Origin: Candidatus Micropelagos thuwalensis
Lineage (GTDB): Bacteria; Pseudomonadota; Alphaproteobacteria; RS24
DNA: 64,000 nt
Direction: 5' to 3'
NCBI RefSeq assembly: GCF_000469155.1
Contig: NZ_AWXE01000004.1
Location: forward strand, 682,001-746,000
Below, in pieces: positions 8,434 to 14,226 of this stretch (position 1 is its first letter; each line of letters starts with the position of its first letter). The notes below the pieces were generated by a model. The model made no database searches. It worked only from the letters and a program-made list of their open reading frames with translations, and was not told where the DNA came from. The translations under genes and the position numbers were made by a program.

Positions 8434-8451
8434 TAGCATGTGGAGAGAATA

Positions 8452-11521
<3,070 letters not shown>

Positions 11522-11616
11522 ATCATTTGTTTTGTATGCGTGGCAACAATCCTTATTCTATGCTACAGAATGTTTAACAGTGTCAATGAGAAGTGCATAT
11601 GCTTGATAAGGACGTT

Positions 11617-12213
11617 ATGACCATGCAATTGGGTAACCTAAAAAATATAAGAAATGTTTTTCAACCATTACGTGCCTGTGGTTTCTGGGTGTGCTTTACC
11701 TTGTCGACTGTATCTTCAGATGCCAATGCGCAAGGCTTTGGCAAGGAAAGTGATATGGTTAAGGGGGCAAAAAATAATAGCGTCGGTATCATGGAGCGAG
11801 GTTTTATTGAGGGCAACAGCCCTAATAGCCGAAGCCGTGAAGGTGACCCAGTGATCATCATTGTTGCAGAAAACGGTTATGAACTCGGTGTTCGTTACCT
11901 GATTTCAAGAGGTGCAAGGGTCAATGACAGGGGCCTGAACAGTCGGACGCCTCTTGGGGTGGCTGCAGCGGCAGGCCATGCCGCCATAGTTGGGCATCTC
12001 CTGAAAGCTGGAGCTGACCCAGATAAAACAGGTTTGCGCCGTGAAGTGCCGCTTATTCGGGCCGCACGTAACGGTCACCTAGAGGCCGTAAAGGTGTTAA
12101 TAGAAAATGGCGCCTATCCCGATGACACGGATTTGACCGGTCGGACGGCGCTCGATTGGGCGCGAGAACAACGTCATCGTAAAATTGTATCGTATTTAGA
12201 AACACAAGAGTAA
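11617..12213 (+). CDS. Secreted ankyrin-repeat protein
   Basis: Ankyrin repeats fill the mature chain: a weak first unit (DPVIIIVAENGYELGVRYLISRG), then clear units around TPLGVAAAAGHAAIVGHLLKAG, VPLIRAARNGHLEAVKVLIENG and TALDWAREQRHRKIVSYL. The N-terminus is basic then hydrophobic and ends ANA-QG, a good signal-peptidase site, so the repeats should be periplasmic. Possible starts are GTG 11593, ATG 11599, ATG 11617 (AAGGA four bases before) and ATG 11623. The stop directly abuts the regB ATG (TAAATG), so the two are co-transcribed. Periplasmic ankyrins such as AnkB of Pseudomonas support oxidative-stress enzymes; a role with Sco1 or RegB is inference. Confidence 0.85.
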   Translation: MTMQLGNLKNIRNVFQPLRACGFWVCFTLSTVSSDANAQGFGKESDMVKGAKNNSVGIMERGFIEGNSPNSRSREGDPVIIIVAENGYELGVRYLISRGARVNDRGLNSRTPLGVAAAAGHAAIVGHLLKAGADPDKTGLRREVPLIRAARNGHLEAVKVLIENGAYPDDTDLTGRTALDWAREQRHRKIVSYLETQE

Positions 12214-13553
12214 ATGTCTGAAAAAACTGCTGACGCTAACATTTACGGTGGCAATCAACAACCAGCCCAGTTTTTAACCCGCGATGCGGGTGTCCTTTTA
12301 CGTGTTCAAACATTATTGCGCTGGCTGGCTGTCTCCGGTCAATCGGTAACGATTTTTGTCGTTGGTTTTGTGCTTGAGTATCAAATGCCACTGGTGCCAT
12401 GTATTGGGCTGGTCTTGATGTCTGTTATGGTCAATACCGCGCTTTGGCTTTATTACCCATCTAATTATCGTTTATCACCAAAATTTGCTGCTGGTTATCT
12501 CATGTATGATTTGCTGCAGTTGACGGCACTTTTGTTTATGACAGGTGGTCTTGCTAATCCTTTTATTGTGATGATTCTTGCACCTGTGACTGTCTCTGCA
12601 ACTGTTTTGACTGCACGGGCTACCTTGTTGTTGGTCGGTATGTCCTGTGCGGTTATCAGCCTCCTTGCATATTTCCATTTGCCGCTTCCCTGGAAGGGAG
12701 AGCCACCGAATTTTCCTGAAATTTATTTGCTTGGTGTGTGGGCGGCATTAATGCTTGGTTTAGCATTTATCTCGGCTTACGTCTGGCGCATTAGCCATGA
12801 GGGGCGGCGAATGACAGCGGCGAGTACGGCCTTACAACAAGTGCTTGCGCGTGAGCACAGATTATCCGCCTTGGATGGGCTGGCAGCTGCTGCTGCACAT
12901 CAACTTGGCACACCGCTCGGTACAATTGGTCTGATTGCCAAAGAATTGCAATCTAGCCCGCTTGCAGACGGGGAGTTATCGGAAGATTTGAAGTCTTTGC
13001 TCACTGAAACCAAACGATGTAAGGAAATATTGTCCTCTTTGACCACACAATCTGATCAGGGTGACACCATTTTTTCTCGCATGTCTCTGTCTGCCCTTAT
13101 TCAGGAAGCAATTGATGAAGCCGGAGGGCATGAAAAACAAATTCTAGTTACTATCGGGCCGACGGATATATCTGAGCCTTATGTTATCCGACAGCCTGAA
13201 ATTATTTATGGTCTTGGGAATCTCATAGAGAATGCGGCAGAATTTGCAACAAATGCAGTTACCGTCGCAGCCCAGATTGAGGCGCAGCGCATCGAAATTT
13301 GTGTTTCTGATGACGGGCCGGGCTTTGCCAATGATATTTTACCGCGCCTTGGTGAGCCTTGGTTGACCTCGCGTCCGGCCTCTGGTGATATGACCGCGCA
13401 ATCGGGTATGGGCTTAGGTTTTTTATTGCCAAAACCTTGCTTGAGAGAACCGGTGGACAAGTAACGGCGACAAATAAAGCGTTATCTGAAAAGGGTGCTG
13501 AGATTAAGGTGACATGGTCACGGGCTCTTTTAGAAGCCAATTCTGAGGCATAA
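12214..13553 (+). CDS. regB: RegB/PrrB/ActS-type redox sensor histidine kinase, frame broken at a T6 run near its end
   Basis: Membrane sensor kinase of the global redox system. The N-terminal half has about six membrane segments with the GGxxNPF quinone-binding motif (GGLANPF, about residue 111). His229 lies in the family H-box AAAHQLGTPLGTI. Cys269 in KRCKEIL matches the redox-active cysteine of RegB. ATP-binding motifs GNLIENAAEFA and SDDGPGFA follow. After SGMGLG the frame fails and would stop at about 13464. Adding one T to the run at 13419-13424 restores FFIAKTLLERTGGQVTATN and a proper end at 13553. The truncated form lacks only the last piece of the ATPase domain. Confidence 0.93.
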
Positions 13554-13659: not shown

Positions 13660-14226
13660 GTGACTGATAAAGAGCATGACACGGAAGAAAGCTTACTCCC
13701 TGAAGGGAAAACAATGCTTTTGGTTGATGATGACCAGCCTTGGTTAACGCGGCTTGCTCGCGCTATGGAGCGTCGCGGATATATCGTCAGTATTGCTGAC
13801 ACTGTGGCCGAGGGGTTGGTGCTCGCTAAAAGCGTAAAGCCTGCTTATGCCGTTGTGGATATGCGTCTTCAGGATGGTAATGGCATGGATGTGATTGAAG
13901 CTGTGCAACAGGCAAACCCAGAGGGGCGGGTGATTATGCTCACTGGATATGGCAATATTACGACTGCTGTAGAAGCAGTAAAAAAAGGCGCGGTTGATTA
14001 TCTTGCCAAGCCAGCCGATGCGGATGAGATTGAAGCAGCTCTTACTGTAGATGGTGAGTCCAAACCAAAACCACCTGAAAACCCCATGTCTGCTGACCGG
14101 GTCCGGTGGGAGCATATTCAACGCGTATATGAACTTTGTGATCGTAATGTTTCTGAGACAGCGCGACGACTGAATATGCACCGCCGCACATTACAAAGAA
14201 TACTGGCTAAACGCGCACCCCGATAA
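13660..14226 (+). CDS. regA: RegA/PrrA/ActR-type response regulator
   Basis: Partner of RegB that activates or represses respiration and carbon or nitrogen genes according to redox state. The 188-residue protein has a receiver domain (LLVDDDQPWLTRLARAMERRG; phospho-acceptor Asp67 in VVDMRLQDGNG; Lys in YLAKPADADE). A short proline-rich linker leads to a Fis-type helix-turn-helix at the end (VSETARRLNMHRRTLQRIL), which matches the highly conserved RegA recognition helix. It starts at GTG 13660 with GAGG upstream. It is 106 bases after regB and converges on bioB. Confidence 0.96.
   Translation: MTDKEHDTEESLLPEGKTMLLVDDDQPWLTRLARAMERRGYIVSIADTVAEGLVLAKSVKPAYAVVDMRLQDGNGMDVIEAVQQANPEGRVIMLTGYGNITTAVEAVKKGAVDYLAKPADADEIEAALTVDGESKPKPPENPMSADRVRWEHIQRVYELCDRNVSETARRLNMHRRTLQRILAKRAPR

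Follow-up and report, generated by a model that had tools for sequence, protein, structure and literature searches.

A one-base frame break in regB of Candidatus Micropelagos thuwalensis and similar breaks at A/T runs in four other genes

The regB gene in this DNA loses its reading frame shortly before its 3' end, which raises the question of whether the break belongs to the organism or to the assembly. The window analyzed here was the whole stretch of 64,000 nucleotides (positions 682001–746000 of contig C4), taken from a 1.96-Mb genome (5 contigs) that is 99.4% complete and has a G+C content of 46.8%. It was compared with five congeners, namely IMCC14465 (G001) and the metagenome-assembled genomes UBA6963, MED-G50, S4_Bin_Bin_76_1, and CPC66 (together G002–G005), the genus being the PS1 clade. 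A DNA identity of 81.3% was obtained between the window genome and IMCC14465, and the Red Sea PS1-clade isolate RS24 reportedly shares an average nucleotide identity under 81% with the same congener.

The break in regB

The following features of the regB–regA locus were located in the window.

12214..13464, + strand: 416-aa regB ORF as read here, with its final residues out of frame
13419..13424, + strand: T6 run where the regB frame is lost, with an in-phase T_TTT_TTA heptamer
13425..13553, + strand: remainder of regB, read in another frame (42 aa plus stop) and conserved in relatives
13660..14226, + strand: regA (ActR/PrrA/RegA response regulator), intact partner (NF033791)

The frame starting at 12214 was followed through SGMGLG into the T6 run, after which it encodes unrelated residues up to a stop at 13464. 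The expected C-terminus of RegB (IAKTLLERTGGQVTATN...) is encoded in another frame, from 13425 to the stop at 13553. This is the frame loss that the sequence-only reading had described, and it was seen here as well. The break is located at residue 404 of 446, near the 3' end. When regB was compared in close relatives, as that reading had proposed, an unbroken 446-aa frame was found in all five other genomes of the genus, to which the window ORF could be matched up to residue 411; the break and its restriction to this genome were observed directly. The further claim that the T6 run has lost one T was not established. The T6 run is present in all five congeners as well, the third position of the Gly codon just before it varies among them, and in the alignment the gap falls at or next to this wobble position. 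The window regB is one base short, and this base may be either one of the run or the wobble base beside it.

The identity of the gene was evaluated with family models. The window ORF passed the curated equivalog model for the ActS/PrrB/RegB histidine kinases (NCBIfam NF033792), giving 487.1 bits against a cut-off of 350 over profile positions 7–389 of 423, and regA gave 311.8 bits against NF033791 (cut-off 250, positions 2–173 of 173). The window ORF thus resembles the RegB/PrrB/ActS redox sensor kinases both in passing their family model and in adjoining an intact regA, but differs from them in that its ATPase domain is not read to the end in frame: the HATPase_c match of the window ORF covers positions 10–79 of 111, versus 10–107 of 111 in a congener, and a complete C-terminal ATPase domain in one frame was not found in this ORF by that match. 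Two other ORFs were observed around the locus. A small ORF at 11593–12213, which by eye we take to be ankyrin-repeat-like, abuts regB with its stop adjoining the regB start, and an ORF on the opposite strand near regB–regA (10886–11521, −) carries a Sco/SenC-like motif, FCPDVCP.

Five broken genes and their A/T runs

The sequence-only reading had found gyrB to be broken in the same manner, and this break is real. The gene is split by a one-base loss at residue 228 of 816, giving the two parts listed below, and the only other gyrB homologue found in the window genome was a paralogue at 45% identity.

8440..9198, + strand: first part of gyrB (252 aa), leaving its frame in an A6 run at about 9122
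9195..10889, + strand: second part of gyrB as the ORF was called, in another frame, 564 aa

The scan for gene breaks that had been proposed for the whole genome was run on 38% of it (C4:1-746000, window included) against G001 C3:76001-930689, using tblastn in both directions. Among the G001 ORFs of at least 100 aa that served as queries, 628 of 778 were matched over 80% or more; in the reverse direction 628 of 687 ORFs were matched. The resulting counts apply to genes of at least 100 aa with a congener match, and to breaks lying more than about 12 residues from an end. One-base losses were detected in five of the 628 matched genes (gyrB, E3, hemH, a LysR-type regulator, and regB), a rate of five over roughly 626 kb of matched coding DNA, and none of them was balanced nearby. 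The signature common to regB and gyrB was thereby supported and extended to three genes outside the window: E3 (dihydrolipoamide dehydrogenase; C4:545977, residue 106 of 468), hemH (C4:80740, residue 104 of 340), and the LysR-type regulator (C4:514699, residue 88 of 307). We take these three names from recognised sequence features and not from a family search. The four breaks besides regB are direct observations, as are the intact genes of the relatives described below.

Two of the seven candidates in the window genome were dropped before the count, as judged from their alignments. One was a 283-aa ORF with a mismatch at residues 38–43 and indels of 2 and 6, which was judged to be a 5' leader; the other was a 195-aa ORF judged to be a shadow ORF antisense to a groES-like gene, and the indel does not lie within this ORF. 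In the reverse direction, no broken congener gene was counted among the 628 matched after inspection of the alignments: candidates of 501, 440, and 261 aa had indels in the first 21–56 residues, ahead of a plausible start, and a candidate of 151 aa spans a gene junction.

The relatives carry these genes in one frame. This was observed for gyrB in all five congeners, for E3 in the four with an orthologue at 94% or more (the match in G004 is a 41% paralogue only), for hemH in the four with a match, and for the LysR-type gene in the three with a match, so that the five genes together, including regB, gave 21 single-frame copies out of 21 examined. With an N-terminal query, hemH was found once per genome. 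The LysR-type gene is the weakest of the five cases, being only about 67% DNA-identical to the reference G001, but alignment with the closer congener G005 gave the same one-base loss in the window genome. Around its break, this gene resembles the G005 copy much more closely than that of G001 or G002, and judging from such similarity it may have had a different history within the genus, by transfer or recombination.

All five breaks are located at or beside A/T runs of 5–8, which as they stand are A6 in gyrB, A7 in E3, T6 in regB, A5 in hemH, and A8 in the LysR-type gene. Of the matched coding positions, 3.1% lie within or border an A/T run of at least 5, and 1.1% a run of at least 6. The chance of finding five of five breaks at runs of at least 5 is 2.9e-8, and that of at least four of five at runs of at least 6 is 7.7e-8; the three new breaks alone, leaving out regB and gyrB that prompted the question, give about 3e-5 (0.0311 cubed). 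The enrichment of breaks at A/T runs is real, and the excess anticipated in the sequence-only reading was obtained for the part scanned. Most runs are intact nonetheless, as only 4 of the 953 coding A/T runs of at least 6 in this part carry a break. A local fault was also considered for the two window breaks and rejected, since a pair within 4.3 kb is expected with a chance of approximately 0.1 (an estimate for five breaks in 746 kb).

The enrichment does not separate sequencing error from replication slippage. No depletion of long A/T runs (7–9) relative to the congener G001 was found, and a systematic undercalling of long runs was therefore rejected. At regB, E3, and the LysR-type gene, the run of some or all relatives is as long as here or shorter. 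Simple run contraction is therefore not the sole reading at three of the five sites, and part of the pattern may be the loss of a base beside the run.

Origin of the breaks

Sequencing or assembly error is the most likely origin of the regB break, because four more genes including gyrB share the flaw and the copies of the relatives are whole. We consider it highly probable that this break is one of several sporadic consensus indel errors at or beside A/T runs, and we infer a technical cause for the breaks as a group. Single bases would have been sporadically lost from the assembly consensus at such places, regB among them. The living organism would then most likely carry regB as one 446-aa frame, as its congeners do, and RegB would most likely function as a normal RegB/RegA redox sensor kinase. 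The sequence-only reading had left three options side by side, of which this shared technical cause fits best. Several points count against it: A/T runs would be favored by replication slippage too, the long runs are undepleted, and the runs of some or all relatives are no longer than here at the three genes named above. The position of the regB break also counts against a technical cause, as frameshifts near the 3' end are more likely than others to be true mutations according to an excerpt of PMC3711429.

The same position speaks for another option of that reading, a true lesion, taken here as a recent loss of function of regB alone in this strain, with some of the other breaks being errors. 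It is the main rival, but an unlikely one overall. Such a lesion would have arisen by replication slippage or point deletion, perhaps during growth in culture, and it removes the last part of the ATPase domain. Redox regulators can be dispensable under laboratory conditions. The same signature, however, occurs in two genes that should not tolerate loss, gyrB and hemH, and the breaks in gyrB and in the once-found hemH argue against tolerated mutation. Tolerated lesions would spare these genes and lead to decay, but the flanks are conserved, and such lesions are therefore disfavored: the protein identity before and after the break is 93/96% for gyrB, 91/92% for E3, and 95/93% for hemH, and no second lesion was seen in these three genes or in regB. 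The RegB tail is 90.5% identical in amino acids to that of the nearest congener, within the range of intact pairs, and its codon differences comprise 4 nonsynonymous and 11 synonymous changes. Decay of regB under relaxed selection was thus rejected, the tail being as constrained as in the intact relatives, although a very recent event would show neither relaxed constraint nor a second lesion.

It is very improbable that full RegB is produced by recoding, either by −1 ribosomal frameshifting at T_TTT_TTA or by transcriptional slippage on the run, which would imply a lineage in which slippage at A/T runs is tolerated or put to use. In-phase heptamers are present at regB and at the LysR-type gene (A_AAA_AAA), and endosymbiont genes frameshifted in poly-A/T tracts are thought to be rescued by slippage, according to an excerpt of PMC3017870. 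On the other hand, gyrB, E3, and hemH have no in-phase heptamer, the 21 congener copies need no recoding, and T_TTT_TTA arises by itself when one base is lost from such a T run or just ahead of it. Folded without pseudoknots, the RNA downstream of the regB site is no more stable than its shuffled versions (z = 0.89 and 0.48). Three of the five runs are of 6 or less, and the G+C content is unlike that of an AT-rich endosymbiont genome. A shared programmed frameshift was rejected, as an in-phase heptamer occurs at only two of the five sites and the break in no relative; the slippage-reliant lineage of the sequence-only reading was likewise unsupported, the congener copies being single-frame, the runs mostly short, and a common motif absent. 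That a free-living marine alphaproteobacterium of moderate G+C content has five true breaks and lives by frequent ribosome or RNA polymerase slippage at runs as short as 5–6 is hardly credible.

The main import of sporadic consensus errors is a data-quality warning on this draft genome. Automatic annotation would report a truncated RegB and a split GyrB, HemH, and E3, and could lead to the false conclusion that redox control or heme synthesis had been lost. The five breaks mark the few sites at which reads should be checked. Were the reads to uphold them, the case would gain great interest, since gyrB could function only with recoding.

Comparison with known systems

Against a programmed −1 frameshift, the regB site exhibits the in-phase X_XXY_YYZ slippery heptamer (T_TTT_TTA); a frame change conserved in relatives was not found among the five congeners, all of which are unbroken, and the fold z-scores gave no downstream stimulatory structure at regB. 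Slippage-rescued frameshifts involve runs of about 8–9 or more, compared with T6 at regB and 5, 6, 7, and 8 at the other sites. An excerpt of PMC1088944 places both the avoidance and the use of slippage at runs of about 9, and one of PMC3711429 gives An with n > 7 and Tn with n > 8 as slippage-prone. For transcripts of E. coli and Buchnera, insertions climb exponentially with run length, with the frame restored in none of the cases covered by an excerpt of PMC5574713. In an excerpt of PMC3017870, the cases of slippage rescue come from endosymbionts whose genomes are very AT-rich and whose tracts are long. The Blochmannia and Buchnera genes of that report resemble the present ones in having A/T-run frameshifts in conserved genes, some of them essential, but their tracts are long (often 9 or more), their genomes extremely AT-rich, and some of their breaks common to species, whereas the window genome has runs of 5–8, a moderate G+C content, and each break in one genome only.

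The breaks also compare with homopolymer-linked indels in draft assemblies. They differ from these in the low rate in this genome and in that, at three of the five sites, a base adjoining the run may be the one lost. In an excerpt of PMC12007338, long-read assembly errors are chiefly false deletions at homopolymers, most often of A/T and commonly in runs of 4–5, and in one of PMC3711429 lone frameshifts confirmed by BLASTp are taken as expected sequencing errors. The present breaks share with the errors of both reports the lone single-base deletion, mostly at A/T runs, in conserved and essential genes, each occurring in one genome, with both sides conserved and the relatives intact.
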